Translations under genes and position numbers: made by a program
In this document: piece after piece, positions 172 to 33,199 of the stretch
Layout: the number at the start of each line of letters is the position of its first letter
Position numbering within the stretch: position 1 is the stretch's first letter
Notes under the pieces: model-generated
What the model saw: the letters and a program-made list of their open reading frames with translations, nothing else
Told to the model about the DNA's origin: nothing
Database searches by the model: none
NCBI GenBank assembly: GCA_018714845.1
Contig: DVMR01000035.1
Location: 1-64,000 of the forward strand
Reading direction: 5' to 3'
DNA: 64,000 nucleotides
Origin: Candidatus Ventrousia excrementavium
Lineage (GTDB): Bacteria; Bacillota; Clostridia; Oscillospirales; Butyricicoccaceae

Positions 172-246
172 GGCGCCATAGCCAAGTGGTAAGGCACGGG
201 TCTGCAAAACCCTGATTCCCCAGTTCAAATCTGGGTGGCGCCTCCA
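172..246 (+). tRNA. tRNA-Cys (GCA)
   Basis: Complete 75-base cloverleaf. The acceptor strands GGCGCCA and TGGCGCC pair, the anticodon loop contains GCA (Cys), the T-arm carries TTCAAAT, and CCA is encoded at 244-246. Its 3' end, together with the terminator behind it, is duplicated at 7803-7862, which marks it as the integration site of the adjoining element. The gene itself stays intact after integration. Confidence 0.97.
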
Positions 247-283
247 ACTTATGCCCTGTAACCGCAATGGTTACAGGGTTTTT
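224..283. repeat. attL, 60-bp direct repeat copy 1
   Basis: Covers the last 23 bases of tRNA-Cys and the whole terminator hairpin. It matches 7803-7862 at 59 of 60 positions (G253 versus A7832). Tyrosine integrases commonly use tRNA 3' ends as attachment sites; here the terminator is carried along too, so both junctions keep one. Confidence 0.92.
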
Positions 284-284
284 T
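254..284 (+). terminator. Rho-independent terminator of the tRNA operon
   Basis: Ten-base-pair stem CCCTGTAACC/GGTTACAGGG with a 5-base loop, followed by six T. It ends the tRNA-Gly/tRNA-Cys transcript and lies inside the duplicated attachment sequence, so a second copy exists at 7833-7862. Confidence 0.9.
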
Positions 285-300
285 GTTGTCTTTTTGGGCC

Positions 301-326
301 TTTTGACCCCAACTTTGACCCCTTAC
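301..326. promoter_or_regulatory. Left integrase arm-type sites (two TTTGACCCC)
   Basis: Two TTTGACCCC copies start 12 bases apart (302 and 314), followed by TTAC. The same 26-bp arrangement with one mismatch occurs near the other end at 7673-7698 in the same orientation. Repeats just inside both ends of an integrase element are typical arm-type binding sites for the integrase N-terminal domain. Function is inferred from position. Confidence 0.65.
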
Positions 327-332
327 AGAAAA

Positions 333-1514
333 TTACCCCGAAATGCTTTGAATGAACTGCTCCATGCGGGCGGCACTTTCCTGCTTCATTTTGTCGGTGA
401 TATGTCCGTAGACGTCCAGCGTGAATGCCGCTGTGGCGTGGCCGAGATTGCTCTGGACTGTTTTTATGTCGTCCCCGGAATGAATGGCGGCCACGGCATA
501 CGAATGCCGCAGGTCGTGAAAGCGCGCGTCAGGCCGCCCGATGGATGCAGCCACTTTTTTGAAGGCACGATAAACGGCGGATTTCGTCAGGTGCAGTCCG
601 CGTTCGTCGGTAAACACAAGGTCACTTTGCACCCATGCCGGACCGGCAGCCAGCCGGTGTTCCAGCTGCGCCAGCTTTCGACGCCGCAGCTGCGCCATGA
701 CAAACGGCGCGGCGGCAATGGTCCGCACCTTGCTGCTCTTTGTGCTGACGAGCGCATAAGCGTCCATCCCTGTTTCCTGATGCAGCTGCATCTGCTTATC
801 AATGGTCAGCAGTCCGCGTTCAAAGTCCACGCAGTCCCATGTCAGCCCCAGCACCTCGCCCTGGCGCAGACCGGTAAACAGGGTGACGATAAAAAGGTCT
901 TCGAAGCGGTGCCCCCGAATGGCTTTGAGAAAATCGGCAATCTGGGGCTCGTCAAGGGGCTGGATGGCCGGTTTTTCGGCGCGGGGAAGAGTGCAGGCGT
1001 CAGCGGGATTGAAGCGGATATAGTCGTTGCGCGCCGCCTGCCTGAGCGCGCTGTGCAGGACGCCGTGAACGCACTTGATGCTTTTGGGAGACAGGCCGGG
1101 CCGGCCGTTGTGCTCGCAAAGCAGGCTGTTGTAAAACTGCTGGATGGTGTGGGTATTGAGCGCTTCCAGACGGATTGCGCCCAGCGCGGGCTTGATGTGC
1201 AGGCGGATATGGTCCTTGTAAATGGCGACCGTGCGGGGCTTGCAGCCGCTTAAATAGGTTTCAGACCAGATATCCAGCCACTCACCGACGCTCATTTTGC
1301 AGGGGTTTTTGTACGTCCCGGCATCGATGGCCGCGGTGATTTCGGACAGCTTTTTGCGGCATTCCTTTTGCGTCGCCGCATAGACAGAGCGCCGGATAGG
1401 CTTGCCGGTGCCGGGGTCTGAACCGACGGTGAAGCGGGCTTCCCAACGTCCGTCCGGCCGCTGGCGGATGCTGCCTGCGCCCTGTGCGGCGCGCGTGTTA
1501 CTCTTGCGGGGCAT
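333..1514 (-). CDS. Tyrosine recombinase/integrase
   Basis: 393-aa site-specific recombinase that should integrate and excise the element at tRNA-Cys. The N-terminus carries an arm-binding domain (about residues 13-70), then a SAM-like core-binding domain (about 75-175), then the catalytic domain with R217 (TGLRQGE), the HDLR box at 333-336, H359 (LGHA) and nucleophile Y369. All expected catalytic residues are present, so it is probably active. The ATG at 1514 is chosen because GAAAGGAGT lies just upstream; an upstream extension lacks a site. Its start overlaps the 3' end of the repressor gene by 17 bases, so the two are likely co-transcribed. Confidence 0.95.
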   Translation of the reverse strand: MPRKSNTRAAQGAGSIRQRPDGRWEARFTVGSDPGTGKPIRRSVYAATQKECRKKLSEITAAIDAGTYKNPCKMSVGEWLDIWSETYLSGCKPRTVAIYKDHIRLHIKPALGAIRLEALNTHTIQQFYNSLLCEHNGRPGLSPKSIKCVHGVLHSALRQAARNDYIRFNPADACTLPRAEKPAIQPLDEPQIADFLKAIRGHRFEDLFIVTLFTGLRQGEVLGLTWDCVDFERGLLTIDKQMQLHQETGMDAYALVSTKSSKVRTIAAAPFVMAQLRRRKLAQLEHRLAAGPAWVQSDLVFTDERGLHLTKSAVYRAFKKVAASIGRPDARFHDLRHSYAVAAIHSGDDIKTVQSNLGHATAAFTLDVYGHITDKMKQESAARMEQFIQSISG

Positions 1515-2217
1515 CGGGGTCACTCCTTTCGTTTTGTCCCGGCAGAAGAGACTCAATAATTTTGGATGCAATGGTCAAATCGAAGAAGCCTTGTAATTCC
1601 GTCTTAGCCCCGTTGATGCGGTCCTGCAATTCTCGTTCAACATACGTCGCAATGATACCATATTTTCGATATTCCCGATTGATTTCTTCAATATAAATGC
1701 TTCTGTCGTCTGGGCAATCGGCAGCGCAGTCACCCGGCAATCTTAAATATTCATTGATAGCATGACACAGATTACTCACTACACTCATAAGACTGCTTTT
1801 CCACGCTCTACGGGGGTTGAAACGGAAAAATTCATCAAAGAACTGCTTCGGATTGTATTCGTCATCCGAAAAACCGCCGCGGTACCGCCCGTCTTCGTCA
1901 CGCCACGCGATATTGTTGTGTAAAAACTGGACAGACTGGGCGTTCAGCCCGGTATACCGGCAGACCTGCTGCAACGTGCCGTCAGGGTCTTTGACGTCTG
2001 ACAGCCCCAGCAGCCAGTCGGAAGACACGTTGCATCGTTCGGCAATCTGCCGCAGCGTCAGCGCATCGGGAACGCGGTCACCATTCAAATAGAAGTTGAC
2101 CGTGGGGCGCGAAAGACCTAAAAAGGCAGCGAATGCAGCGATAGTTTTTTTGCCTTGCAACTCGCATAAACGGTCGCAAAAGATAGGAAATCGGTGCTGT
2201 TTTTCTGATTGTTTCAT
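1498..2217 (-). CDS. CI-like XRE-family repressor
   Basis: 239-aa protein with an N-terminal helix-turn-helix (about residues 20-65, including AAFLGLSRPTVNFYLNG) of the Cro/C1 type, then a longer C-terminal part without a recognisable LexA/CI autoprotease motif. ATG at 2217 has AAGGGGTG upstream. It is divergent from the Cro-like gene at 2408 and precedes the integrase, the usual place for the lysogeny or satellite master repressor (Stl-like in PICIs). It probably represses the rightward promoter and perhaps its own. The induction mechanism is unclear: without a peptidase motif, derepression could occur by antirepressor binding, which is inference. Confidence 0.8.
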   Translation of the reverse strand: MKQSEKQHRFPIFCDRLCELQGKKTIAAFAAFLGLSRPTVNFYLNGDRVPDALTLRQIAERCNVSSDWLLGLSDVKDPDGTLQQVCRYTGLNAQSVQFLHNNIAWRDEDGRYRGGFSDDEYNPKQFFDEFFRFNPRRAWKSSLMSVVSNLCHAINEYLRLPGDCAADCPDDRSIYIEEINREYRKYGIIATYVERELQDRINGAKTELQGFFDLTIASKIIESLLPGQNERSDPDAPQE

Positions 2218-2325
2218 TTGATTACACCCCTTGCCGAAAATTTTACGCACCATGTCGAAAAAAATCGTCACGACAGCGTTTTATTTAGCTTTGAATTAAC
2301 AAGTGTCACATAATTTTAAATATTG

Positions 2326-2354
2326 TTGCTATTGTTGTACATATATATTATAAT
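2326..2354 (+). promoter_or_regulatory. Rightward promoter of the element
   Basis: TTGCTA (2326-2331) and TATAAT (2349-2354) are separated by 17 bases, upstream of the Cro-like gene. Arms TGTAC (about 2336) and GTACA (about 2362) bracket the -10 box and could form an operator for the neighbouring regulators. The surrounding AT-rich stretch 2272-2400 also must hold the leftward repressor promoter. Confidence 0.6.
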
Positions 2355-2407
2355 ATAGATGGTACAGAGAAATGTCAACAACAATTTTTTTGAAAGGAGA
2401 AGGTTTC

Positions 2408-2590
2408 GTGAACAATCAGGACATTCGAACGGCGGCAAAAATGCGCGGGGTGCGGCTTTGGCAAATAGCCGAGGCACTGGGCATCACGGACGGCAATTTC
2501 AGCCGCAGGCTCAGGCGCGAGCTGTCTGAAACGGACAAGGAGCGCATTCTGCACATCATCGACAATCTGGCACAGGGGGTGACGCCATGA
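2408..2590 (+). CDS. Small Cro-like HTH protein
   Basis: 60-aa protein that is nearly all helix-turn-helix (residues about 15-40, LWQIAEALGITDGNFSRRL). GTG at 2408 is preceded by AAAGGAG at 8 bases. First gene of the rightward operon, opposite the CI-like repressor, which suggests a Cro-like switch role. The stop codon overlaps the next start (ATGA), so the two are translationally coupled. Confidence 0.75.
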   Translation: MNNQDIRTAAKMRGVRLWQIAEALGITDGNFSRRLRRELSETDKERILHIIDNLAQGVTP

Positions 2591-2775
2591 CCGGGAAGCT
2601 GGCGCTGACCGTGACCGAAGCGGCCCAGCTGGCGAGCGTATCTCGTCCGACTCTGTACCGCTGGATGAAGCTGGACGGCTTTCCGGTGTTCAAGCTGGGC
2701 GGCTGCACGAGAATCCCTGCGCAGGCCTTTGCCTTGTGGCTCGAAAGTCAGGTCGGGGGTGAAAAGCGTGCATGA
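2587..2775 (+). CDS. AlpA/excisionase-like DNA-binding protein
   Basis: 62-aa protein of the MerR-like winged HTH type used by AlpA and excisionases: a TVTEAAQLASVSRPTLYRWM helix-turn-helix followed by a FPVFKLGGCTRIP wing and a terminal helix. It would bend DNA at the element ends for excision, or activate element genes as AlpA does. Overlaps the upstream gene by 4 bases. The fold assignment is firm; choosing between excisionase and AlpA-like activator is not possible from sequence. Confidence 0.75.
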   Translation: MTGKLALTVTEAAQLASVSRPTLYRWMKLDGFPVFKLGGCTRIPAQAFALWLESQVGGEKRA

Positions 2776-2890
2776 AAAAGAAAAGGCCCATCCAGCCGCG
2801 GCAACGGCTGGACAGGCAATGACGGGATTCGGCCGGACAGGCATTCGTCCCGTCCATGATTATACCACAAACGACACAAAAGGTCGAGCC

Positions 2891-3250
2891 GTGAAGCGGT
2901 TGAGCGACGGGCAGAAAAGGCGTGTGGTGCAGCTCATCCGCCGGGAGTGCTGCAACCTGTACGAGGGCAGCTGCCTGCTGCTCGACGACGGCGAGCCGGT
3001 CCCGTGCCCGCAGATGATGACCAATTCGCTGCTGTGCCGGTATTTCCGCAGCGCGGTTTTGCCCATTGACAAGGCGCTTGAGGCGGAAATCATGGGGCAC
3101 GACGGCGTCAAGACCTGTCAGGTGTGCGGCAGGCCCTTCCGGGCGGTCAGCAACCGCGCCAAATACTGCGAGGCGTGCAGCCGCACGGTGCGGCGCAAAA
3201 AGGACGCTGAGCGCAAACGGGAAAAGCGGTGGGAAAATGTCCGCATTTAG
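2891..3250 (+). CDS. Cysteine-rich VLP-domain protein with zinc-ribbon tail
   Basis: 119-aa protein from GTG 2891, with AAAAGG upstream. The N-terminal half holds the cysteine pattern of the Cys-rich VLP family seen in Firmicutes mobile elements (RECCN, GSC, VPCPQ, LLCRYFRSAVLP). The C-terminal half adds CQVCGRPF and YCEAC, a likely zinc ribbon, and a very basic tail. Function of the family is unknown; nucleic-acid binding is likely from the zinc motif and charge. A GTG at 2768 would add 41 residues of low-complexity sequence and is less convincing. Confidence 0.75.
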   Translation: MKRLSDGQKRRVVQLIRRECCNLYEGSCLLLDDGEPVPCPQMMTNSLLCRYFRSAVLPIDKALEAEIMGHDGVKTCQVCGRPFRAVSNRAKYCEACSRTVRRKKDAERKREKRWENVRI

Positions 3251-3364
3251 AGCTTTCAAAACCCAGTGTTTGCAAGGGTTTGCGGGCACGCGAACAAAGG
3301 GGGCAATATCATTTGACCTGAACCCCCGAAAACAGGATTCTAAATGCGGACAAGGAGTGAAGCA

Positions 3365-3709
3365 ATGAAGATAGAAGCATTACTGAGCCGGGGCCGCGCA
3401 GGGGCCGTGCCGATGGTGCAGCTGGTGGCGTGGACGGGGCTGGACAGCCGCAGCATCCGGCAGCTGATTGAACGGGAACGCCGGCAGGGCGCCCCCATTT
3501 TGTCAGACAACCGAAGCGGGTATTTTCTGGCGGGCAGCCCGGAAGAGGTCGAGCGGTTCAGCCGGTCGATGGAGCACCGTGCGCGCGAGATTCTGCGCAC
3601 CGCCGCCGCTGTCCGCGCCGCCGCCGGCTGTGCCGGCAGACACCCGGCTCCGCCATGTTCGACATTCGGCACGCCCAGCGAAGGGCCGGGCGGCCTGAAC
3701 CGGTCCTAG
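3365..3709 (+). CDS. Small HTH protein
   Basis: 114-aa protein; ATG 3365 has AAGGAG 7 bases upstream. Residues about 15-60 (VQLVAWTGLDSRSIRQLIER, then APILSDNRSGYFLAG) look like a winged helix with a short beta wing, followed by a helical stretch and an Ala/Pro-rich tail. It sits directly before the winged-helix gene at 3713, three bases away. This type of protein is common in replication or regulation modules of clostridial elements. No specific function can be named. Confidence 0.65.
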   Translation: MKIEALLSRGRAGAVPMVQLVAWTGLDSRSIRQLIERERRQGAPILSDNRSGYFLAGSPEEVERFSRSMEHRAREILRTAAAVRAAAGCAGRHPAPPCSTFGTPSEGPGGLNRS

Positions 3710-3712
3710 CGC

Positions 3713-4084
3713 ATGTCGAGACGAAAAAAGACGCCGTTCGCGCCGTGGGAGAGCAACACATCGAATGGACTTGAGGACAGGTTCATCCGTATCGGCGAAA
3801 CACAGCTGATGTCGGCAGCAATGAAGCGGCTGGGGGACAAGGCCAATCGCCTGTTCGTGTACATGAAGCTGGAAGCCCGCGGCAAACGCGAGTTTGCCAT
3901 GCCGTATACGAAAATCATGAAAGTCATGCCCATCAGCCGCCCGACCATCAAGACGACCATTGAAGAGCTGGAGCGGGCCGGGTTTATCGACATTCTGGAG
4001 CGCAACGGCAATGTGCGCAAGCCCAACCTTTACGCCTTTTCAACCCGGTGGCGTGAAATGGAAAAAAGTGTAAAAGTGCAGTAA
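3713..4084 (+). CDS. Winged-helix protein, possible replication initiator or regulator
   Basis: 123-aa protein. The central part (RLFVYMKLEARGK, then YTKIMKVMPISRPTIKTTIE, then ELERAGFIDILERNG) is a winged HTH resembling the DNA-binding domain of phage and plasmid replication proteins. Its 3' end runs straight into four palindromic repeats (4081-4218), an arrangement typical of an initiator with its iterons or of an autoregulator with its operators. There is no helicase or primase domain, so if it initiates replication it must recruit host enzymes. Initiator versus repressor is undecided. Confidence 0.6.
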   Translation: MSRRKKTPFAPWESNTSNGLEDRFIRIGETQLMSAAMKRLGDKANRLFVYMKLEARGKREFAMPYTKIMKVMPISRPTIKTTIEELERAGFIDILERNGNVRKPNLYAFSTRWREMEKSVKVQ

Positions 4085-4218
4085 AGCCATTTTACCAGTC
4101 AAAGGCCAAACTGGTAAAGCCGTTTTACCAGTAAAGGGTTTTTCCCCGTACAGCTGGTAAAACAGCTTTACTACCAGTGAGCATTTACCCCCTGCGCAGC
4201 TAGTAAAACCATTTTACT
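4081..4218. repeat. Four palindromic iteron-like repeats (GTAAA-N5-TTTAC)
   Basis: Copies lie at 4081-4095, 4111-4131 (CTGGTAAA-N5-TTTACCAG, perfect 8-bp arms), 4154-4177 (imperfect) and 4202-4218 (AGTAAAA-N3-TTTTACT). They begin inside the last codons of the winged-helix gene. A dimeric protein, most simply that gene's product, is the likely ligand. The following bases to 4414 carry no gene I can support. Confidence 0.75.
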
Positions 4219-4414
4219 GAATATATAGATATACCATGCCAGGGGGTTTTAAAAAAGGGGTTTACTGGGGGCTTTTACGCAGGGTCGGCCCGGAGCAGCC
4301 GTGGCCTGTCACCATGCGCCTGACCGGCTGGCTGGCGCTGTATCAGTCTGAAAGAGCCGATTTTGAAGCAGTGAAATGAGCAGTAAATCGAACGGTGAAA
4401 AGGAGCATGAAAGC

Positions 4415-4675
4415 ATGTTTTACTTAAAGCACAAAGGGAAAAAGCTGTATATCGAAAGCGACAACGTGTACACAACCTGTCCGCAGTGCGGGAAAGAGCA
4501 CGCGGTCGACCTGAACGATGCCATTATAGACGGCGTGCTCGACCTGTACGGCCTCGACATTTTCTGCACGGAGTGTTCGGCTAAGCGTCGGGCGTCTGGC
4601 GGCAGCTCGCCGCAAGTTGCCGCAGGCTGCCGCAACTCGCCGCAGACTGCCGCAAGCTGGGAATATGACGCATGA
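4415..4675 (+). CDS. Small zinc-ribbon protein
   Basis: 86-aa protein starting MFYLKHKGKKLYIES, with AAAAGGAG upstream. CPQCGKEH and CTEC form a probable four-cysteine zinc site (about residues 25-55). Similar short proteins occur in Firmicutes phages and islands; function unknown. The C-terminal third is encoded by a 10-bp tandem repeat (4601-4660), which suggests recent repeat growth inside the gene. ATG 4376 is a possible earlier start but has no good ribosome site. Its stop overlaps the next start (ATGA). Confidence 0.6.
   Translation: MFYLKHKGKKLYIESDNVYTTCPQCGKEHAVDLNDAIIDGVLDLYGLDIFCTECSAKRRASGGSSPQVAAGCRNSPQTAASWEYDA
4601..4660 (+). repeat. 10-bp tandem repeat, six units
   Basis: Six successive 10-base units share a core of the form GCCGCA followed by four variable bases (for example CGCAAGTTGC, CGCAGGCTGC, CGCAACTCGC, CGCAGACTGC). 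The period equals one helical turn, so all cores face the same side of the DNA. The array lies in the end of the zinc-ribbon gene, 145 bases before the 11-bp array. Confidence 0.75.
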
Positions 4676-4818
4676 TTCCGGCGGCGTGTCTGAGCTGTGA
4701 GCATCGGGACGACTGGACAGGCTGTCCGGAGCGCTGCGAGTATGTCAAACGGCGGCTGGTGCACGAGCTGTGCAGGCAGACGGCAGAGCTGGCCGCGCAG
4801 AGAAAAACAAACCAATAA
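4672..4818 (+). CDS. Small cysteine-rich protein (48 aa)
   Basis: Begins MIPAACLSCEHRDDW and has CLSC plus CPERC, a four-cysteine zinc-type pattern, then a basic helical tail ending QRKTNQ. The ATG overlaps the previous stop (ATGA), arguing for real translation. Its last codons run into the 11-bp repeat array. Function unknown; third Cys-rich small protein of the element. Confidence 0.55.
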   Translation: MIPAACLSCEHRDDWTGCPERCEYVKRRLVHELCRQTAELAAQRKTNQ

Positions 4819-4881
4819 CAAACCAATAACAAACCAATAACAAACCGGAACAAACCGGGAACAAAACCGGAACAAAATCAC
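4806..4881. repeat. 11-bp iteron array, seven units
   Basis: Three exact AACAAACCAAT units are followed by AACAAACCGG, AACAAACCGGG, AACAAAACCGG and a final AACAAAATCAC. Period is 11 bases with one 10-base unit. Short phased direct repeats next to a DNA-binding gene module are typical of plasmid-type origins or transfer origins. No relaxase is present, so a replication origin or a site read by a helper element are the two simple options. Confidence 0.8.
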
Positions 4882-5130
4882 GAGAAATCACGAACGAAAA
4901 AAGAGCAGGTTTTAGCAGTTTTTTACAGGTAAAAAAGAGCACGGTCTGCGGATTTGTGGGGGCCTGCGCCCCACCGCAAACACTTCGTTGGTTTGCGTCG
5001 GGGACCCCTTTCATTTTTCCATAAGTGGGGATTACTCCCCCCTTATCGCTCGCTGTGCTCGCTAACCCCCCTGTCGGGCTTTGCCCTCTCAGGGTGCAGT
5101 TTCCCGGCGCATGTCCGGGAAACTGCGGAA
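4882..5130. other. Gene-free, hairpin-rich stretch
   Basis: No convincing reading frame. A segment near 4945-4965 resembles the CTGCGGATTTTGTGGGGG motif at 33209-33227. An 11-bp perfect inverted repeat (CAGTTTCCCGG at 5097-5107, CCGGGAAACTG at 5115-5125) directly precedes the shared core repeat. It is probably the upstream, more divergent part of the dispersed structured element described next. Confidence 0.5.
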
Positions 5131-5470
5131 TGAATCCGCCCGTCCCGGCGAAGCCGGGGTCCTGCGTCATCCTCGCGAAGCGAGATTGACGCCCCAAGCA
5201 CAGGCCTTTAGCAGGGAAGGGAGTCAGCGGTACAGTCGCCGCGCGCGTCGCGACGCCGCGACAGGCCGGCAAGCGCCGGCTGGCGATTGGCTCCGCCGGT
5301 CTCCGAAATCGGTTTCATCAATTTGGGCGGCGCGCGGAGCGCAAGCGCGGCAAGGGTTACATCAAGGGCATTTTTTGGTTCTTTTTGTTGCTCGTGACAA
5401 AAAGAACAACCAGAGACGGCTGGCATCCGGCATCGCGCTGGCGTCAACAGCAGCGCCCTGCCGACCGGGA
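5131..5470. repeat. Dispersed structured repeat, copy 1
   Basis: Bases 5142-5388 match 33291-33537 without gaps and with five differences; flanks to about 5470 match more loosely. The sequence is packed with short inverted repeats, such as CCGGCGAAGCCGG, CTCGCGAAGCGAG, GCCGGC/GCCGGC and GGTTCTTTTTG paired with CAAAAAGAAC. Open frames on either strand are not supported by ribosome sites and probably arise from GC richness. It is either a mobile non-autonomous repeat or a large structured RNA. One copy sits in the integrated element, the other in the chromosome. Confidence 0.8.
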
Positions 5471-5517
5471 CAAACTAACCGCAGTCTGCGCGCAAAAAGC
5501 CGCAAAATCACGCACAT

Positions 5518-5546
5518 AAAAAGGGGACGGCATTGCCGTCCCTTTT
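5518..5546. terminator. Bidirectional terminator
   Basis: GGGACGGC/GCCGTCCC stem with a three-base loop, A-run on the left and T-run on the right, so it can act on both strands. On the minus strand it lies 168 bases beyond the Uma2 stop and would end that operon. Confidence 0.75.
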
Positions 5547-5630
5547 CACTGGCGACACGGCTCCGCGCCTTGCAGCGCAAGCCCTTGCGGCATGTGGCCG
5601 ACAAACAACTGACAAACAACCGACACGCCG

Positions 5631-5670
5631 TCACCGTAACTCACGGTGATTCACCGTGATTCACCGTAAG
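5631..5670. repeat. 10-bp tandem repeat TCACSGTRAN, four units
   Basis: TCACCGTAAC, TCACGGTGAT, TCACCGTGAT and TCACCGTAAG follow each other without gaps. TCACCGTGA is nearly self-complementary, so each unit is also a potential dimer half-site. It lies 40 bases beyond the Uma2 stop. Two ACAAACAAC units at 5600-5620 recall the 11-bp array. The rest of 5547-5713 shows no gene. Confidence 0.7.
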
Positions 5671-5713
5671 CTGCGGCGAATCACGGCCGGCATCCCGTCA
5701 AAACCAATTCGTG

Positions 5714-6289
5714 TTAAGTGGGAAAGACTTTGCCCAAGTCAATGAAACATCCATCCAAAACGTTGACCCGCGCAATATCTTCCCGGCCGTAGTCCTCGCA
5801 GAGGCGGAGAAGTCCGCCGTCCAGCGTGAACACCTGTACCGACTGCGTGTCCGGCTCGACAATCCAGTATTCCCGAACCCCTGCCCGCTGGTATAGACCC
5901 AGCTTTACAAGCCTGTCATGCCGTCGGGTGGAAGGAGAGAGGACTTCAACAATAAAATCAGGCGCGCCTTTGCACCCGTACTTATCCAGTTTGCCGCTGT
6001 CGCACACAACGGAAATGTCAGGCTCGACCACCGTATCGACGCTTTCCGGGCTGTCGCCGTCTCGCTCGAAAAGGCGGACCGCAAACGGGGCCGCATACAC
6101 CCGGCATTTTTTCCCGTCCAAAAAGTTTGCAAGCTGTCGGAACAGTTCTCCGCTGATTTCCTGATGCACCCTGGACGGCGGAGCCATCATGAACACTTGT
6201 CCATCAATGATTTCTGCCCGTTCGTTTTCATCCCACACAAGCACGTCTGCAAACGTGCGCCGGGCATTTTCTGCCGGAAATACCATCAT
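5714..6289 (-). CDS. Uma2-family (DUF820) PD-(D/E)XK nuclease-like protein
   Basis: 191-aa protein of the Uma2 family, a putative restriction-endonuclease fold. Recognisable features are VEPDISVV, APDFIVEVLSPST (the ExxSPST signature) and the GVREYWIVEPD strand. The active-site-like Asp and Glu of EPD and DFIVE are kept, as is the downstream basic helix. Overlaps the upstream RHH gene by one base (TAATG), with AAGGGGGTG as ribosome site, so the pair is one transcription unit. Uma2 proteins are abundant in cyanobacteria and known in mobile elements, but their function is unsettled. Pairing with an RHH protein suggests a toxin-antitoxin or defence role; that is inference. Confidence 0.85.
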   Translation of the reverse strand: MMVFPAENARRTFADVLVWDENERAEIIDGQVFMMAPPSRVHQEISGELFRQLANFLDGKKCRVYAAPFAVRLFERDGDSPESVDTVVEPDISVVCDSGKLDKYGCKGAPDFIVEVLSPSTRRHDRLVKLGLYQRAGVREYWIVEPDTQSVQVFTLDGGLLRLCEDYGREDIARVNVLDGCFIDLGKVFPT

Positions 6290-6480
6290 TACACCCCCTT
6301 GTCACGCTGCATGGTCTCGTCAATGGCCCGGTTGATGAATCCGTTCACGCTTTCGCCGCAGGATTCGGCATGGGCCTTGATAACGTCCTTTTGGCCTTTC
6401 GGCATGGTCAACAGCAATTTGTCATACTTTTCACGGACGTATTTATTAACTGCTTTTTGCTGTGCTTTAGACACCGGCAT
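6289..6480 (-). CDS. Ribbon-helix-helix (Arc-like) protein
   Basis: 63-aa protein: a basic N-terminus, then YDKLLLTMPKGQKDVIKAHA and ESVNGFINRAIDETM, matching the beta-strand, helix, helix layout of Arc/CopG-type regulators and antitoxins. ATG 6480 has AAGGAGA upstream. It is encoded directly before Uma2 with TAATG coupling, like an antitoxin-toxin pair. Three copies of an AT-rich palindrome lie 75-155 bases upstream and are candidate operators for autoregulation. Confidence 0.75.
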   Translation of the reverse strand: MPVSKAQQKAVNKYVREKYDKLLLTMPKGQKDVIKAHAESCGESVNGFINRAIDETMQRDKGV

Positions 6481-6553
6481 TGAGTTGTCTCCTTTCCGAG
6501 GGCGGCAAAATGCTGACACCTTCTCCAGTATGCCATTATTATATCATGTTTGT

Positions 6554-6635
6554 CTATTTATATCAATATAGAAAATACACAATATATTTATATAAATATT
6601 GGTAAGTTTGCCAGTAGATATATTTATATAAATAT
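6554..6635. promoter_or_regulatory. Three AT-rich palindromes between divergent genes
   Basis: ATATTTATATAAATAT, a perfect 16-bp palindrome, occurs at 6584-6599 and 6620-6635, and a 14/16 match at 6554-6569. Centres are 30 and 36 bases apart. The sites lie between the RHH-Uma2 operon and the rightward gene at 6802 and can control both. The remaining bases to 6801 hold no gene; they contain a short GC-rich leader to the next gene. Confidence 0.65.
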
Positions 6636-6801
6636 AGTATAATAAGACCATAGCAAAGAGGAAGCGGGCAGGAAGAAGCGGTGAAAGGCCGCCGAGGCCG
6701 AAAGCGTCCCGACGTGCCGGGCAATATCCCTGTGAGGCCAAAGGCCAATAGGCAGGAAGATTCCCGGCAGGCCCGCTTCCCGAATGAAAGGAGAAAGCAG
6801 C

Positions 6802-7068
6802 ATGAACATGAACGAACGGGTCCGGGAACTGCGGGCGCTGCGGCAGATGGCAAACGAGCTGGCCGCCGAAATCGAGGCCATTGAAAGCGAGGTCAAGGCC
6901 GAAATGAGCGCCCGCGATGTGGACACACTGACGGGGACCGACTGGCGCATTACATGGAAGAGCGTGACGAGCAGCCGTCTGGATACAGCGGCCCTGAAAA
7001 AGGAGCTGCCCGAGCTGGCCGAGCGTTTTACCCGCCAGACGACGGTGCGCCGCTTCGTCGTGGCGTGA
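6802..7068 (+). CDS. Small coiled-coil protein
   Basis: 88-aa protein with AAAGGAG before ATG 6802. Residues about 3-40 form an acidic coiled coil (heptads of Leu/Ala/Ile), followed by a conserved-looking C-terminus with WRITWKSVTSSRLDT and ending RRFVVA. Proteins with this layout are frequent in clostridial phages and islands. I cannot assign a function; the next gene follows after 15 bases. Confidence 0.6.
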   Translation: MNMNERVRELRALRQMANELAAEIEAIESEVKAEMSARDVDTLTGTDWRITWKSVTSSRLDTAALKKELPELAERFTRQTTVRRFVVA

Positions 7069-7083
7069 AAGGGGGCGGGAAGG

Positions 7084-7584
7084 ATGCACTATCCGATTGA
7101 CGAGCAGGAGTTCCTTGCCGAGATGCGCAGGCAGGGACCTGTCAATGCGTTGGCCGAAGAGGTGATTTCGCACATGCTGCCGGTCATCAACCTGAGCTAC
7201 GAGTGCGGGCGCAAAGGGGCGAAGTCCCTTGACGGGCTGCCAGAGACGGGCTCCGGCGAGCTGCAAACGCTGTTCATCCGCTGGTGTGACAGAGCCTACC
7301 ATGCGGGGGTTTTGGAGCGGATGCGGCGGTACATCGACAGAACAGGCTTTAAAAACCGGGATTACAGCCTGGTTTTGACCGAGGTGTACGCACTCGGGGA
7401 GCTGGGAGCGGTCGAAGCGGCGTGTCTGGCGTTTGATTACGGGCAGGCCAAAGGCGTCCGTGCCGCACGAAAGGCCGCGAAGCCGCGGCAGGCGGTTGGC
7501 TTCGCCGGCCCAGCTGATGCGCAAAGTGTGTGCCAGTCGGCGCTTGCCGACCTGCGGAACAGCAGGCGAATATCGACGTACTGA
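7084..7584 (+). CDS. Unknown element protein
   Basis: 166-aa, mostly helical protein (YPIDEQEFLAEMRRQGPVNA at the start) that I do not recognise. It is the last gene before attR. The reading frame after about residue 145 looks atypical, and a different frame continues cleanly from about 7531 to a stop at 7668-7670 with a protein-like sequence (AEQQANIDVLSRIRDD, then EQKLEAVRLLLTIRQNG). This may be a frameshift, or a short overlapping gene. Confidence 0.5.
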   Translation: MHYPIDEQEFLAEMRRQGPVNALAEEVISHMLPVINLSYECGRKGAKSLDGLPETGSGELQTLFIRWCDRAYHAGVLERMRRYIDRTGFKNRDYSLVLTEVYALGELGAVEAACLAFDYGQAKGVRAARKAAKPRQAVGFAGPADAQSVCQSALADLRNSRRISTY

Positions 7585-7672
7585 GCCGGATTCGGGACGA
7601 CCCTGCGTCGTCCCCTGAACAAAAGCTGGAAGCCGTCAGACTGCTCCTGACCATCCGGCAAAACGGGTGATT

Positions 7673-7698
7673 TTTTGACCCCAATTTTGACCCCTTAC
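7673..7698. promoter_or_regulatory. Right integrase arm-type sites (two TTTGACCCC)
   Basis: Same 26-bp arrangement as at 301-326 with one mismatch, about 105 bases inside attR. The bases between 7699 and 7802 hold no gene; they include the right-hand recombination region. Confidence 0.65.
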
Positions 7699-7802
7699 GG
7701 CATTTATGATGTCTGACAGCATTTTACAGGAAAATCGTGAAAGCGTTGAAAACACTGGGTTTCAGGGCATGGCATTAACGGCATTTTACGCTCCCGGGCT
7801 AA

Positions 7803-7862
7803 TTCAAATCTGGGTGGCGCCTCCAACTTATACCCTGTAACCGCAATGGTTACAGGGTTTTT
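7803..7862. repeat. attR, 60-bp direct repeat copy 2
   Basis: Carries a 3' tRNA-Cys fragment and a complete copy of the terminator hairpin (7833-7857 plus T-run). Together with attL it defines the element ends. Confidence 0.92.
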
Positions 7863-8028: not shown

Positions 8029-9963
8029 ATGCAAGCAAAACGCCTATTCGCAGGTCTTTTGTCTGCGGTGCTGCTCATGATCCTGCTGCCCGTCGGGGCA
8101 TCGGCGGCGGACAGCGATGTAATCGGGGTTTTTCAGGGCCCGGATATCTATGTGACGGTGCGGCCCTTTACCATCAGTGAGCCCGGTTATGAGCTGAATG
8201 CCGATTCGCACGTATATTATCAGGGGTTTTATGAGGGACTTTACGCGAAGACAGGCCCTGCAGATACCCGCCACGGCGTACGGATTGGCTACTTTAATGC
8301 AGATGGTGAGCTTCAGGCTGAAAGCTGGGTGCTGAGCACTTATGCAGTGAATGTCAGCGAGGAGCGTGCGAGCGTGTCCGATGACCGCATCATATTCTGG
8401 GATGGCGAGTCGTCGACATCGGAGGATCTCGGTCTGCCCGAAAGCAATGAGGTCCTTTACGGATATATGGACACGCACGGCAATGTTGTCATCGAGCCAC
8501 AGTATTTCGCAGACGAAATCAACGCTTTCCATGACGGATATGCCTATCTTGATGTGTACACAAATCAAGATGATACCGGCGAAACCGGCCGTCTCATCGA
8601 TGCTGACGGCAATACCGTCATGACTTTTAAGTACGGGCGCACACGCGCACAGAACTATATCAATCATTCAGACGGCATCGTCTGTTATCGTGAATCTGAT
8701 CGCGACATGGTGGAAATTTGGGAAGAAAAGATTGTCTATGCTGATATCGCAACCGGTGATGTCATCATGGAGTTTGATATGCTGGAGGATGCCGACGGCT
8801 ACCTGTCTGACCGGCTGATTCCCCGGATTGGTGGTACATACAGCCCGTTTTCTGAGGGATATCTGGTCTGCCTGGACTACCGCGGTGTCAGCGCCGAGAC
8901 GCTGGCTTACAACGAGCAGGAAAACCGTTATGCTATTTTTGACCGTTCGGGCAACGAGGTCGGCGCTCTGCCCGAGGGTCTCTGGCCGGCGGACACGATC
9001 AACGGTGCCGGATTCCAGGGGGGTCTGATGTTGGTTCGCGGAAATGAGACCAATCAGTACGGCGATATTGCATATGGCGCTGTCAATACGCAGGGCGAGC
9101 TGGTATTCGAGCTCGGAAATTTGGCGAGTAACCCGTCCGAGTGCGGACTGGTTGTCCTTTCTTCCGCGGCGGGCAGCGATACAGTTGATTTTGACGGCAA
9201 TGTTGTCATCCCCAACGACGTCACGCTGCCCAATGGGCTTCAGCTGGATATCGTTCGTGGGTCGTCCGAGCACCCGTACTTCAGTGATGATGGTATCGCT
9301 CTGGGCGTAACCTATGCGAATGGGCAGGCCAATGCTTATTATGTGCTCGAGGCGCATGAGGGTGTGTACTCCGGCAGCGCGCCGATTCTGTATGGGGCTG
9401 AAAACGTCACCCCGACCGACCCTGAGACGCCGACTGAGCCGGCAGGCGATACCCCGTCGAGCTGGGCAGTGAAAAACGTCAATACCGCCGTCGAGGCGGG
9501 CATTGTGCCCGACACCTTGCAGTCAGCGTATACGCAGGCCACCACGCGCGCTGAGTTCTGCGCACTGGCTGTCGAGCTTTATGAGACCATCATGGGCACG
9601 GAAATCACCGAACGCGCCACCTTCAGCGACACGACAGACGTCAACGTCGAGAAAATGGCCGGTCTGAGTGTTGTCAACGGCGTGGGCGACGGACGATTTG
9701 ATCCGAGCGCGTCCCTGACCCGTGAAGAAGCGGCGACCATGCTGTCCCGTCTGGCCAATGTGATGGAAAAGCCGCTGACCGCCGGCACGGCCAGTTTTGC
9801 CGACAACGCATCCATCTCCAGCTGGGCTTCTGAGGCCGTGGGACAGGTGCAGGCTTCGGGCATCATGAACGGTATCGAGGGTAATCAGTTCGCGCCCTCT
9901 GACCCGTACACCCGTGAGCAGAGCATCGTCACCATGCTGCGGCTGTATGACTTTGTGAAATAA
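8029..9963 (+). CDS. Secreted WG-repeat protein with SLH domains (paralog 1)
   Basis: 644-aa exported surface protein. Signal peptide with hydrophobic core LLSAVLLMILLPV and cleavage near ASAA (residues 1-27). The body (about 30-450) holds WG/KWG-type beta repeats, for example GYMDTHGNVVIEPQYF and RLIDADGNTVMTF. A Pro/Thr-rich linker (TPTDPETPTEPAG) leads to three SLH repeats (about 480-644) with FDPSASLTREEAA and FAPSDPYTREQS motifs, which anchor proteins to the cell-wall polymer. A paralog of 643 aa lies at 31155 in the same orientation; signal peptide and SLH part are almost identical while the WG part differs. Ligand unknown. Confidence 0.9.
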   Translation: MQAKRLFAGLLSAVLLMILLPVGASAADSDVIGVFQGPDIYVTVRPFTISEPGYELNADSHVYYQGFYEGLYAKTGPADTRHGVRIGYFNADGELQAESWVLSTYAVNVSEERASVSDDRIIFWDGESSTSEDLGLPESNEVLYGYMDTHGNVVIEPQYFADEINAFHDGYAYLDVYTNQDDTGETGRLIDADGNTVMTFKYGRTRAQNYINHSDGIVCYRESDRDMVEIWEEKIVYADIATGDVIMEFDMLEDADGYLSDRLIPRIGGTYSPFSEGYLVCLDYRGVSAETLAYNEQENRYAIFDRSGNEVGALPEGLWPADTINGAGFQGGLMLVRGNETNQYGDIAYGAVNTQGELVFELGNLASNPSECGLVVLSSAAGSDTVDFDGNVVIPNDVTLPNGLQLDIVRGSSEHPYFSDDGIALGVTYANGQANAYYVLEAHEGVYSGSAPILYGAENVTPTDPETPTEPAGDTPSSWAVKNVNTAVEAGIVPDTLQSAYTQATTRAEFCALAVELYETIMGTEITERATFSDTTDVNVEKMAGLSVVNGVGDGRFDPSASLTREEAATMLSRLANVMEKPLTAGTASFADNASISSWASEAVGQVQASGIMNGIEGNQFAPSDPYTREQSIVTMLRLYDFVK

Positions 9964-10100: not shown

Positions 10101-11051
10101 TTAAGCCGGTTGGTTTGTAACCAGCTGTATAAGCCGCTTTTCACACAAATCAACCCCGATGACGCAAAAGGCACTGTCCGTCTGCGGACTGCCCGGGCGG
10201 ATGTCAGTATGCCCGCGGATATAATCAAACTCCAGCCAGCCGCCCGCCATATCGCGTACAATCCCTTTGGCGCGCAGCACCGTTCCGGCATTTTCAGACG
10301 CAAGACCTGCAGAAATTTGCAGCAGACGCTCGCGGGTATATTGGTCCGCAGGGCGGCAGGTCCAGCTGACAAAGGTCTGTCCTGCTTCATGGTGATGATG
10401 CGCATGGGAGTGATGCTCATGCACATGGCCGGCCTGCGGTATCTGCAAGGGCTTCCGTTTCTCCGCAGCGCCGGCAAGTGCCTGACGCAGCGTCTCGGCG
10501 TCCAGCAAATCCCATGGAACAGCGAGAACATCGGCATGGGGATTGAGCGCGCCAAGATATTGGGCACAGTCGCTTACACGCTGCCGGTCTGCACCGGCGA
10601 TATGGCTCAGCATCATCAGGTCGGCATTTTTCACCTGGTCCAGATAAAACTCACCAAAGCTTTCGGCATAATCCCGGCATAATTCCGCGTCGCACACGGT
10701 GACGGCGCAGGCTGTTTCAAGTCCGGCATCCTGAGCAGAGCGCAGGACTTCAGATAACTTGGCAACGCCAGACGGCTCGATGAGGATGATTTCCGGGGAA
10801 AATCGGCTGACAAGCTCGCACAAAGCCTGTGTAAAGTCGCCGGCCAGCGAACAGCAAATGCACCCCGAGGTCAGTTCACGGACCGCGAGCCCGGTCTGCG
10901 CCAGAAATGCGCCGTCGATTCCGACTTCGCCGAATTCATTTTCGACCAGTGCCAGCTTCTGTCCCGGCCAGCAAAGCGAGGCCAGCCTGCGAATGAGCGT
11001 GGTTTTGCCTGCTCCCAGAAAACCTGAAATAATGACGACCTGTGCTGCCAT
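10101..11051 (-). CDS. CobW/COG0523-family GTPase-like metallochaperone
   Basis: 316-aa protein. P-loop GFLGAGKTT (10-18), metal-binding CICC (64-67, ELTSGCICCSL) and a C-terminal CobW domain are clear. A histidine-rich stretch at 209-221 could bind Zn, Ni or Co. The usual NKxD guanine-specificity motif is replaced (SHIA at 149-152), so nucleotide preference may differ. Last gene of the corrinoid operon, starting one base after the previous stop. Members next to methyltransferase genes are thought to supply metal; here zinc for the UroD-fold enzyme or cobalt for the corrinoid are possible. The supplied metal is inference. Confidence 0.85.
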   Translation of the reverse strand: MAAQVVIISGFLGAGKTTLIRRLASLCWPGQKLALVENEFGEVGIDGAFLAQTGLAVRELTSGCICCSLAGDFTQALCELVSRFSPEIILIEPSGVAKLSEVLRSAQDAGLETACAVTVCDAELCRDYAESFGEFYLDQVKNADLMMLSHIAGADRQRVSDCAQYLGALNPHADVLAVPWDLLDAETLRQALAGAAEKRKPLQIPQAGHVHEHHSHAHHHHEAGQTFVSWTCRPADQYTRERLLQISAGLASENAGTVLRAKGIVRDMAGGWLEFDYIRGHTDIRPGSPQTDSAFCVIGVDLCEKRLIQLVTNQPA

Positions 11052-11052
11052 T

Positions 11053-11907
11053 TTATTTCGCCCCCTGCAAAAAATCCAGCCGGTACAGTGCGCGGCAGGG
11101 TGCCGACAGGCGATTCAGGCACCCCAGCCCCCAAATCTGCGCGTGTTCATCTTCCGCGGCCTGCAAAAGCGCCTGCTCAAAATTGAGCCCTTCGCTGACG
11201 GGCACGGCTGTGCATTGGACAGCGCCGGTATCGAGCAGACTTTGCGTCATTTTGCCGCAAAGAAAGATGGTCATATCCGGACACTGGTGCCGGATGCTGT
11301 CAAACAGCCGCGCTATACCAGGGGCAACATGGGTGGTAAAGGTCCTCTGGCCGACAATGTCGACAGTTGCAACCGGGTCGGCGTAAGACAAAATGCGCGC
11401 CCCGGCGCGGCGGGCACGGACGGCATAATCAACACAGGCCTGCTCCATGCGGCGCAGCAGCGCCTGACCGTCGTCCCGGCGCAGGGCCTTGAAAAACGCG
11501 CCCATGGGCAGGAGCTGACTGAAAATGGTAAATACGCCGGTTGCTCCATAAGCGACACACAGGCCCTGCTCTGCGAGGGTGCTGACCGCACCCAGAACCG
11601 CATCAATGCGGGAGCTGTTCAGGCAAAACTGCGCGGGCAGTTCGGACAGTGAGGCGTAGGGCGGCTGTGGAACCCGGGCGCCCCGTTCGTCCAGCCGCAC
11701 AACGGCGCCCAGCGCTTCGGCTTCCAGCGTGTTGCAAAAGGGAAGGCGGCACAGCCTGCCGCCGCGTTCGGCACACAGCCTGCCTGCGGCCGCGGCAATA
11801 TTCTGCGGGCTGTTGTACAGCTGCTGCGCCGTCAGGCCCATGTCCCGCAGCAGAGCAGGCGTAATCTGTTCAGGCTCTGACCCGGACAGACAGACAAAGG
11901 TCTCCAT
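11053..11907 (-). CDS. Short UroD-fold (MtaA-like) protein lacking a zinc ligand
   Basis: 284-aa member of the uroporphyrinogen decarboxylase superfamily used by corrinoid methyltransferases. It is shorter than its relatives here (341-376 aa), mainly at the N-terminus. The HxCG zinc motif of the others reads FLCG (215-218), so the His ligand is missing while C217 and C263 remain. It may be non-catalytic or use another metal site. AGGAGG lies within the end of the upstream activator gene. It sits between the activator and CobW-like genes, so it belongs to the same process. Confidence 0.75.
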   Translation of the reverse strand: METFVCLSGSEPEQITPALLRDMGLTAQQLYNSPQNIAAAAGRLCAERGGRLCRLPFCNTLEAEALGAVVRLDERGARVPQPPYASLSELPAQFCLNSSRIDAVLGAVSTLAEQGLCVAYGATGVFTIFSQLLPMGAFFKALRRDDGQALLRRMEQACVDYAVRARRAGARILSYADPVATVDIVGQRTFTTHVAPGIARLFDSIRHQCPDMTIFLCGKMTQSLLDTGAVQCTAVPVSEGLNFEQALLQAAEDEHAQIWGLGCLNRLSAPCRALYRLDFLQGAK

Positions 11908-11910
11908 GCG

Positions 11911-13578
11911 CTATTCCTCCTGAAATTTCATGGCCTGGACAAAGACTTTTTCATAACCGTCAAGGGCTGAAAGCTCGACATAATCAATGCGCCCGGCAAT
12001 ATCTTCGACTCTTTTCCGTTCATCCCGGGACAGCAGACAGAGCATGGCCCCAGACTTTGACGTATTGCCCACATAGCGTACAACAGGGCCCAGCGCCGCC
12101 GGGATGATGCCGGCCCCGACCAGGCTTTCGACTTTCAGATGCGCGCCGAACTGCCCGGCGACCAGCATTTCGTCTATCTCAGACGGACCGATGCCGGCAA
12201 ACCGCATCATGGTCTGGATACCGGACAGCAGGGCGCCTTTGGCAAGCTGTACCTGACGGATGTCGTTCTGCGTCAAAATGATGCCGGCCGACGCATCGAG
12301 CACGACGCGCTTTTTTCCGTCTACGACATCCACAAGAGGGTGTGTCTGCAGCCGTCCGGTTGGCTGGATGATTCCGTGCGCCCGCAGCTGCGCAATGGCA
12401 GCCAGCAGCCCGCTGCCGCACAGTCCGCGCGGCGCGGTGTTCCCGATGACGGTCAGCATGGCCGTCAGTGTCCCATCTCGGTCGGCGAGATGCACGTCCT
12501 CGACAGCGCCGGCCGCGGCACGCATACCACAGCTGATATTCATGCCCTCAAGCGCCGGTCCTGCGGCACAGGAGCAGGCGTACATTCTGCCGGCGCGGGA
12601 CAGCACGATTTCGCCGTTTGTGCCGATGTCAATAAAAAGCACCGTCCTGTCCGTCCGGTCCAGACCGCAGGTCAGCACGCCCGCCGTGATATCCCCGCCG
12701 ACAAAGGCCGAGACAGCAGGCAGGCAATAGACCATACAGGCCGGCGATGCAGGAAGCCCCAGCACCGAGGCCGGACAGGTCTGCGCTCCGTGCAGAGCAG
12801 GGCGGTAGGGTGTGCGCCCCATGCCGGAAGGGTCAGCGCCCAGCAAAAGGTGAATCATGGTGTTGTTGGCCGCTATGGCAATCTCATAAACATGGTCCGG
12901 CCGGACGCCGGCAGTGTTATGGCTGTACAGGTGCCCGAGCAGCGACTGCAGGTCGCGCAGCACGGCATCCCGCAGCTCTGCGGCCCCGCCGGGCTGACCG
13001 GCATATTGAATACGGCTCATCACGTCCTGGCCATAGACGCTCTGGCTGTTGACACACGATGCGCTGAGCAGCTCCTGCCCGGTGCAAAGGTCGACAAGGG
13101 TCGCAACGATGGTTGTCGTTCCGATGTCCACGGCAATGCCGAACAGGCGCTCGGCCGTGTCGCCCGGCTCATCCAAAGCTTGCGATTCCAAACGCAGCAG
13201 GCGCGTGCCGCCCTGTGCGGTCCGCTCCTTGCGGACGACAGGCAGCCCCTCGGCGGGGCGCGTCAGACCGCTGCTGATGATATCGCTGACCGCCTCGCGG
13301 GCCGGCAGCTCAACCGTCATGTCACCTTCCACCGTGTGCAGACAGGCCAGCCGCCAGCCCGCATGGAGCTCGTCTGCTGTAAAAAAACGCCGATCTTCCG
13401 GCTGAGCGGGGGGCGGGGAGTCGGGCAGGCGGACGCGGCATTTGCCGCACTTGCCCATACCGCCGCAGGGGGCATCCATCAGGCGGCGCGCCGCCAGGGT
13501 GCGGTACAGATTTTCGCCGGCCGCACAGTCAACAGACTGCTGCGGCCGGCCCGGAAGACATACAGTAATGCGCGGCAT
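11911..13578 (-). CDS. Reductive activator of corrinoid proteins (RACo-type, DUF4445)
   Basis: 555-aa protein that returns inactive Co(II) corrinoid to Co(I) using ATP. An N-terminal plant-type [2Fe-2S] domain has C38, C44, C47 (CGGMGKCGKC) and C79. A middle linker leads to an ASKHA-type ATPase domain from about residue 145 (AVDIGTTTIVATLVD), with FIDIGTNGEIVL and GMRAAAGAVE further on. It lies two bases after the corrinoid-protein gene, its expected substrate. Length and domain order match RACo. Strong assignment. Confidence 0.93.
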   Translation of the reverse strand: MPRITVCLPGRPQQSVDCAAGENLYRTLAARRLMDAPCGGMGKCGKCRVRLPDSPPPAQPEDRRFFTADELHAGWRLACLHTVEGDMTVELPAREAVSDIISSGLTRPAEGLPVVRKERTAQGGTRLLRLESQALDEPGDTAERLFGIAVDIGTTTIVATLVDLCTGQELLSASCVNSQSVYGQDVMSRIQYAGQPGGAAELRDAVLRDLQSLLGHLYSHNTAGVRPDHVYEIAIAANNTMIHLLLGADPSGMGRTPYRPALHGAQTCPASVLGLPASPACMVYCLPAVSAFVGGDITAGVLTCGLDRTDRTVLFIDIGTNGEIVLSRAGRMYACSCAAGPALEGMNISCGMRAAAGAVEDVHLADRDGTLTAMLTVIGNTAPRGLCGSGLLAAIAQLRAHGIIQPTGRLQTHPLVDVVDGKKRVVLDASAGIILTQNDIRQVQLAKGALLSGIQTMMRFAGIGPSEIDEMLVAGQFGAHLKVESLVGAGIIPAALGPVVRYVGNTSKSGAMLCLLSRDERKRVEDIAGRIDYVELSALDGYEKVFVQAMKFQEE

Positions 13579-33086: not shown

Positions 33087-33098
33087 CCAGGAAAAGAG

Positions 33099-33132
33099 AA
33101 GCTCCGGACGGCTAAGCCGTCCGGAGCTTTTT
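33099..33132 (+). terminator. Terminator after SLH gene 2
   Basis: Same AAGCTCCGGACGGCT stem as at 9976, with T-run. Confidence 0.9.
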
Positions 33133-33199
33133 CTTTTGGATGACAGTACACGGATATCTTTCCTGCACCGGAGCAAACCACAAGGCCCGGCGGCATGCC

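Follow-up and report, generated by a model that had tools for sequence, protein, structure and literature searches.

The window analysed here, bases 1-64000 of an 83-kb contig from the 2.08-Mb, 81-contig genome of Candidatus Ventrousia excrementavium, carries near its left end a genomic island that is inserted at a tRNA-Cys gene and spans 7.58 kb between its flanking attachment (att) repeats. We scanned the open reading frames (ORFs) of this element with Pfam, PHROGs, NCBIfam and PADLOC, and collected relatives by searching with its winged helix-turn-helix (wHTH) protein; loci and genomes are denoted by L- and G-numbers, respectively. The island opens with an integrase and a CI-like gene on the minus strand, followed on the plus strand by Cro-like, AlpA-like, Cys_rich_VLP, PHROG_2113 and winged-helix genes and an array of palindromic sites. 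The ends and this left part comprise the following features:

172..246, plus strand: tRNA-Cys (gca), the integration target (ARAGORN; Rfam RF00005)
224..283: attL, a 60-bp repeat formed by the 3' end of tRNA-Cys and a rho-independent-type terminator (hairpin), 59/60 identical to 7803-7862
301..326: tandem direct repeat (TTTTGACCCC x2), probable left integrase arm site (repeat analysis)
333..1514, minus strand: tyrosine integrase, 393 amino acids (aa) from ATG (PF00589 1.4e-20, PF14659; PHROG_1 9.6e-73)
1498..2217, minus strand: CI-like repressor (HTH_3), overlapping the integrase start (PF01381 6.4e-10)
2408..2590, plus strand: Cro-like regulator (PHROG_17740 1.5e-13), conserved in L025, L028 and L080
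2587..2775, plus strand: AlpA/excisionase-type helix-turn-helix (HTH) protein (HTH_17 3.3e-12; TIGR01764 above cut-off)
2891..3250, plus strand: Cys_rich_VLP protein (PF14194 9e-22; PHROG_32573 2.1e-31)
3365..3709, plus strand: PHROG_2113 protein of the family core; a winged helix and a long helix at the C-terminus are predicted (AlphaFold pLDDT 85.5)
3713..4084, plus strand: single-domain RepA_N-like winged-helix protein, 123 aa, candidate replication initiator (PDB profile search, structural alignment)
4080..4096: dyad 1, AGTAAAGCCATTTTACC (this and the next three from a repeat and shared-motif dyad search)
4113..4129: dyad 2
4156..4172: dyad 3
4202..4218: dyad 4
4219..4240: AT-rich box adjoining the array on its 45-bp side, more degenerate than in relatives
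7673..7698: tandem direct repeat, probable right integrase arm site (repeat analysis)
7803..7862: attR, direct repeat, 59/60 (98%) identical to attL

An earlier reading of this DNA from its letters alone (the sequence-only reading) had described a satellite-like island with 60-bp flanking repeats, an intact integrase, a CI/Cro switch and an AlpA-like gene, and each of these was recovered by the searches listed above. attL spans the last 23 bases of tRNA-Cys plus the hairpin terminator, and the tRNA was the sole Rfam match (RF00005) over the whole window. The integrase frame is open, with the R, K, HxxR, H and Tyr motifs visible in its sequence, while tandem repeats with 12-bp spacing lie just inside both island ends. 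The same layout, with a different sequence each time, occurred at both ends of L075, L078, L079 and L090 and never in shuffled sequences; these repeats are probably the arm sites of the integrases. The island thus combines a specific att site and integrase with a divergent master repressor and an AlpA/Xis-type regulator, both defining traits of phage-inducible chromosomal islands (PICIs). No relaxase, terminase, capsid or tail family was found among the island ORFs scanned in these four ways, in agreement with the earlier statement that relaxase and structural genes are missing; the capsid and tail genes that would mark a cf-PICI or prophage were likewise not found in the island.

The sequence-only reading had further noted a winged-helix gene with iterons and inferred a replication region of the island's own, and both the gene with its sites and a replication-like module around it are supported. 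In a PDB profile search with the protein, the top three hits were RepA_N structures (4pql, 5kbj and 4pt7; E 0.005). Its predicted structure (pLDDT 79.7) aligned best (VIA) with RepA_N N-terminal domains (4pql, Z 8.7; 4pt7, Z 8.2), the N-terminal domain of RepA from the PICI-like element (PLE) of Vibrio cholerae also appeared in the list (4ro3, Z 6.4), and viral fold matches included viral replication proteins. The protein resembles the DNA-binding N-terminal domain of RepA_N initiators alone, with homologs of 113-141 aa, and lacks the C-terminal host-specific domain of the RepA_N family; PF06970 was matched by one family member only, at 0.039. Protein and structure measures are each weak alone, and the adjoining DNA provides the stronger evidence.

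Directly after the gene, at 4080-4218, the window contains four shared-motif dyads, compared with at most one in 60 shuffles. Three to four dyads immediately follow the wHTH stop codon in nine of 12 members, with shuffles yielding no more than two, and an associated iteron array is itself a mark of the RepA_N family. Ignoring low-scoring extra matches in the window and L029, dyad centres are spaced 33/43/46 in the window, 33-43-45 in L025 and L027, 33-43-104 in L071, 46-43-33 (the mirror order) in L029 and 45-43 in L075. The dyad sequences, in turn, vary (GGTAAA..TTTACC, TTGTCC..GGACAA, TGTCG..CGACA, TGCCA..TGGCA, TGGTGG..CCACCA). The AT-rich box is found on the 45-bp side of the array. With respect to the gene, array and AT box have the opposite orientation in the L029/L075/L090 group; over 21 nt, the box of L075 equals those of L071 and L113 in reverse complement only, and members with the window-type orientation group together in the wHTH protein tree with moderate support. 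Searching 2.9 million viral contigs with an 18-mer of the AT box returned two matches, one being L113, a viral contig that carries winged-helix, PHROG_2113, ribbon-helix-helix (RHH) and Uma2 genes.

The same protein and sites could instead form a transcription or segregation module of MarR or TubR type. Foldseek placed MarR-type regulators first (HsmR at the top) and listed TubR, the RepA_N match is weak, with an E of 0.005 and a Z of 8.7 close to values that common folds attain, and layouts of dyads and AT tracts also form operators and promoters. Against an origin further count the degenerate AT box of the window itself, the presence of only two dyads in L028 and the asymmetric repeats of L078. 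However, a regulatory module appears unlikely to us: the whole array and AT box occur in both orientations with respect to the flanking genes, which a promoter would tolerate poorly, no TubZ-like or ParM-like partner was seen, the best profile matches are RepA_N structures, and known RepA_N iterons likewise carry inverted sub-repeats and an A-tract (PMC7145576). As the geometry is kept while the sites change, and is found in either orientation, wHTH gene, dyad array and AT box are better explained as a putative origin than as a promoter.

The relatives make up a thinly spread family of Oscillospirales and neighbouring Clostridia, with the winged-helix gene detected in eight of 394 genomes of the order and three of 391 of the class. 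Seven members, including the window island, have tRNA repeats at both ends; they occupy Cys, Leu, Met, Pro, Ser and, twice, Thr sites (six tRNA types) and measure 3.8-9.9 kb. The att repeats of the other bounded members are exact and 23-59 bp long:

L028/L074: 3.84 kb, tRNA-Leu, 59-bp repeat
L029/L077: 9.9 kb, tRNA-Met, 45-bp repeat
L075: 7.66 kb, tRNA-Pro, 47-bp repeat
L079: 7.7 kb, tRNA-Ser, 23-bp repeat
L078: 4.1 kb, tRNA-Thr
L090: 6.6 kb, tRNA-Thr

L025, L027, L071, L076, L080 and L113, the last a viral contig, are incomplete, lack bounding repeats or show decay. Bounded islands share the order int, CI, (cro), HTH, (PHROG_2113), wHTH, array, and the PHROG_2113 gene upstream of the putative initiator is conserved in eight loci, its protein giving common winged-helix matches only. 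L029, L075 and L079 encode mutually related, small-terminase-like (TerS) HTH proteins (PHROG_2538/4044, 1e-5 to 1e-9), and the contig fragment L071 encodes a clear small terminase (PHROG_309 1.6e-51). In L029 there are also genes for a sigma factor and for a tape measure protein (TMP) of 639 aa (10588-12507; PF20155 1.3e-45, PHROG_1068 4.2e-127), the latter being 40-63% identical, in pieces, to those of prophages. Packaging or tail genes are absent from the window island, L028, L078 and L090. TerS-like and tape measure genes in relatives are the main reason for placing the lineage among phage satellites. The satellite-type gene order noted in the sequence-only reading is upheld by relatives that have this order and carry small-terminase-like genes, as Gram-positive PICIs do.

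That reading had left open whether the element is a satellite or a mobilizable island; the PICI-like order and the terminase-like genes of relatives support the former, whereas no relaxase was found that would support conjugative mobilization. A minimal integrative mobilizable element (IME) using a conjugative helper via an unrecognised origin of transfer (oriT) would be in line with the Cys_rich_VLP gene, whose only match in the plasmid collection is annotated 'cysteine-rich VLP protein', and with the RepA_N proteins of about 100 aa reported from streptococcal IMEs (PMC5357655). We judge it improbable, given that neither a relaxase nor a coupling protein was found in the island or the relatives' scanned ORFs (Pfam, PHROGs, NCBIfam), that relatives carry TerS and TMP instead and that the Gp157-like protein of the right end and PHROG_2113 belong to phage families. 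Descent from a full prophage stripped of its structural genes is more improbable still. Several island genes do fall in PHROGs, and a short part of the integrase is similar (75% DNA identity) to the integrase of Flavonifractor phage Castelnaud; the compact order, however, recurs as complete att-bounded units of 3.8-9.9 kb at six tRNA types, and no full-length phage relative was found in the phage collection. The integrase had no match in IMG/VR.

Comparison with related genomes revealed horizontal movement. In G001, a member of the same genus, the att region and the arm repeats stand at the same tRNA-Cys, but of the integrase only the final 111 codons remain, and the sequence beyond them is unrelated. 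This integrase remnant is 95.2% identical in DNA to the window, compared with 84.4% on average and 91.0% at most across the 25 syntenic tiles used as the window/G001 baseline; as it exceeds the tile maximum, the fragment was probably exchanged after the species separated. The tRNA-Cys of G002 is element-free, and a decayed relative elsewhere in that genome retains cro, PHROG_2113, wHTH, RHH and Uma2 genes. The region is thus a discrete, variable island, as expected from the sequence-only reading, and not a fixed or invariant locus, with the winged-helix gene present in few genomes of the order. The ratio of nonsynonymous to synonymous substitution (dN/dS) was below 0.4 in five of five genes compared. 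The downstream flank could not serve as an empty-site test, because it is part of a repeated family of S-layer homology (SLH) genes and is not the same in G001 or G002.

Taken together, these findings favor a PICI-like phage-satellite-type genomic island as the identity of the window element, to which we assign a probability of about 0.62. Several observations pull in the other direction. Neither an excised circle nor packaged DNA was observed, nor an empty site between identical flanking sequences, and the window island has no TerS, structural or capsid-redirecting gene. Profile scores for TerS in L029, L075 and L079 are modest (1e-5 to 1e-9), the wHTH protein was not found in 50,697 phage and 72,556 plasmid records, and a protein-pattern search of IMG/VR gave no match. 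Finally, island and resident prophage DNA shared dispersed repeats only, with no cos/pac-like similarity suggesting mimicry.

A related possibility is that the lineage consists of phage satellites and the window copy has lost its TerS, being now an immobile or passively moved remnant. In L029, L075 and L079, TerS and regulator genes sit between array and RHH gene, where the window partly holds a GC-rich repeat (4880-5600), and the G001 and G002 copies are clearly decayed. Nevertheless, the window copy has att repeats matching at 59/60 positions, a complete integrase and, in one comparison, purifying selection on cargo and core genes, and the bounded L028, L078 and L090 also have no TerS, so that TerS-less elements recur at different tRNAs. 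Degradation of this kind is, in our view, rather unlikely, and a PICI-like satellite remains our preferred interpretation.

For excision, replication, helper dependence and packaging, we infer the following course, in which CI silencing and the helper packaging steps are drawn from PICIs (PMC6092414) and PLE (PMC7145576). The integrase would catalyse recombination between the chromosome and attP, a 60-bp copy of the 3' end of tRNA-Cys, the CI/Cro pair would maintain lysogeny-like silence until induction, and the AlpA-like protein would probably act as excisionase or activator. After excision, the small RepA_N-like protein may bind the four dyads that directly follow its gene and melt the AT-rich box beside them, allowing the circle to replicate with replisome proteins of the host or helper. 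Other lineage members would direct packaging with their own small terminase; in the TerS-less window copy, packaging would fall to a helper phage, through a cos/pac-like site or non-specific uptake into helper particles, or may have been lost. We give packaging of this copy somewhat less than even odds. A possible helper is a myophage-like prophage on contig C38 of the same genome (L100/L101, about 9.5-39 kb), which has terminase, portal, sheath and a 674-aa tape measure, portal and sheath being named from gene order and sequence and not by family search. Its large terminase is intact at 408 aa; in-frame stops initially ascribed to it lie outside this frame. We also considered the L029 tape measure as a tail-shortening device, but at 639 aa it is close to its prophage homologs (674 and about 711 aa), which does not imply strong shortening.

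Among known systems, PICIs and Staphylococcus aureus pathogenicity islands (SaPIs; PMC6092414) share with this family the att site, integrase, divergent repressor, AlpA/Xis-type gene, replication gene with iterons and, in relatives, TerS; they too are below 15 kb and have no lysis genes or full structural set, and some PICIs without TerS use the phage pac/cos. SaPI-type PICIs differ in having a primase/helicase Rep, which was not found here with Pfam, PHROGs or NCBIfam, and for this reason we call the element PICI-like and not a PICI. In Escherichia coli PICIs, two iteron sets flank the AT region, whereas here one dyad array lies beside the AT box (PMC6092414). The nearest characterised functional analogue of the proposed origin is the PLE replicon (PMC7145576), a satellite replicon with a RepA_N initiator, iterons containing inverted sub-repeats and no predicted primase/helicase activity; PLE differs in its large serine recombinase, its host phylum and a RepA that includes a C-terminal domain in addition to the N-terminal one. 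RepA_N plasmid initiators (pSK41, pTZ2162; 4pql, 4pt7, 5kbj) resemble the island protein in predicted fold and share the pattern 'rFxQ...Ls...Y...KPN.Y' and dyad-type iterons, but are about 340 aa long, compared with about 113-141 aa and an array 3' of the gene here. Phage-inducible chromosomal minimalist islands (PICMIs; PMC10803314) similarly have few genes (int, alpA, a replication gene) and no capsid remodelling, but they require a primase (prim), typically sit at fis and occur in Vibrionaceae, whereas the present elements occupy tRNA sites in Clostridia and no primase was found. Streptococcal IMEs (PMC5357655) are similar in having a RepA_N protein of about 100 aa and a tyrosine integrase, and differ by their MobV and MobT relaxases, none of which was found here.

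In the open-access literature searched, this island family was not found described, nor was any satellite family built in this way found for gut Clostridia, where frequent packaging of bacterial DNA in phage-like particles has been reported (PMC12946183); within this scope, the family is previously undescribed. There is about an even chance that it represents a distinct phage-satellite family of gut Clostridia whose replicon combines an isolated N-terminal domain of RepA_N type with four dyads in a rigid array (33/43/45 bp) and an AT box, with diverging dyad sequence and fixed geometry, and some of whose members encode a TerS themselves and a tape measure that may adapt the helper tail. If so, it would provide direct evidence for the suggestion of the PLE authors that RepA_N genes located next to recombinases on chromosomes may be signs of cryptic phage satellites (PMC7145576). 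The proposed origin module is compact, at about 0.6 kb including the gene, and predicts that the shortest RepA_N proteins, whose role is uncertain and for which another function has been suspected (PMC5357655), would be initiators. Dyad sequences are particular to each lineage, so that the specificity of protein for site could be exchanged between lineages and mapped.

In the right part of the island, a zinc-ribbon gene precedes a stretch of non-coding DNA, after which come RHH and Uma2 genes as a pair on the minus strand and two small genes on the plus strand:

4376..4675, plus strand: zinc-ribbon protein (PHROG_21057 4.1e-15)
4672..4818, plus strand: small Cys-rich ORF without match
5714..6289, minus strand: Uma2 nuclease-like cargo, PADLOC candidate PDC-S03 (PF05685 9.4e-37; PADLOC 1.7e-51)
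6289..6480, minus strand: RHH (Arc-like) regulator upstream of Uma2, a conserved right-end gene in L025, L075, L079, L090 and L113
6555..6637: three AT-rich palindromes between the RHH and gp157-like genes (repeat analysis)
6802..7068, plus strand: Gp157-like phage protein (PHROG_434 region 1e-12, PHROG_1956), right end conserved in L029, L075 and L090
7084..7584, plus strand: uncharacterised protein of the right end, also present in L029 (tblastn, 50% over 57 aa)

RHH followed by Uma2 is the arrangement in the window, G002 and L113, and the palindromes at 6555-6637 are likely RHH operators. A dN/dS of about 0.06 for Uma2 between window and G002 suggests a selected function. The pair is perhaps a defence or toxin-antitoxin-like cargo, and Uma2 has been cited in a survey as a likely solo toxin (PMC2701414). 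Searching the island with TerS and TMP of relatives (tblastn) gave no match. PHROG_2113 and alpA matches at 21-23 kb of the window lie inside unrelated reading frames and were dismissed as chance.

The GC-rich, non-coding repeat family, present in the window at 4880-5600 and 33285-33607, has 35 partial matches in the genome itself and 29 in G001, with copies often at contig ends and adjoining SLH-domain genes. The SLH/WG protein gene beside attR (8029-9963; also 32531-33137) is part of a multi-copy family, whose C-terminal SLH module occurs here and on contigs C80 and C74 in copies 92-94% identical at the DNA level, and on C1 and C48 in shorter pieces.

Elsewhere in the family, the integrases of L028 (5073-6458) and L090 (6312-7763) contain a long insertion before the catalytic domain, which in L028 is a Cro/C1-type HTH according to Pfam (HTH_26, 2.2e-9). 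Two phage records found with the L029 tape measure were discarded as satellite candidates: MT836670 is a tail-gene fragment and MT836503 has no family gene besides TMP. An 8.4-kb viral contig, L112, carries PHROG_2113 directly before a TerS-like gene, together with DnaB/primase-like and ParA-like genes, and is possibly a second satellite type sharing PHROG_2113. Finally, four viral contigs of 12-18 kb (L108-L111) have a TerS-like gene in common, two of them also with a terminal integrase, and are satellite candidates.

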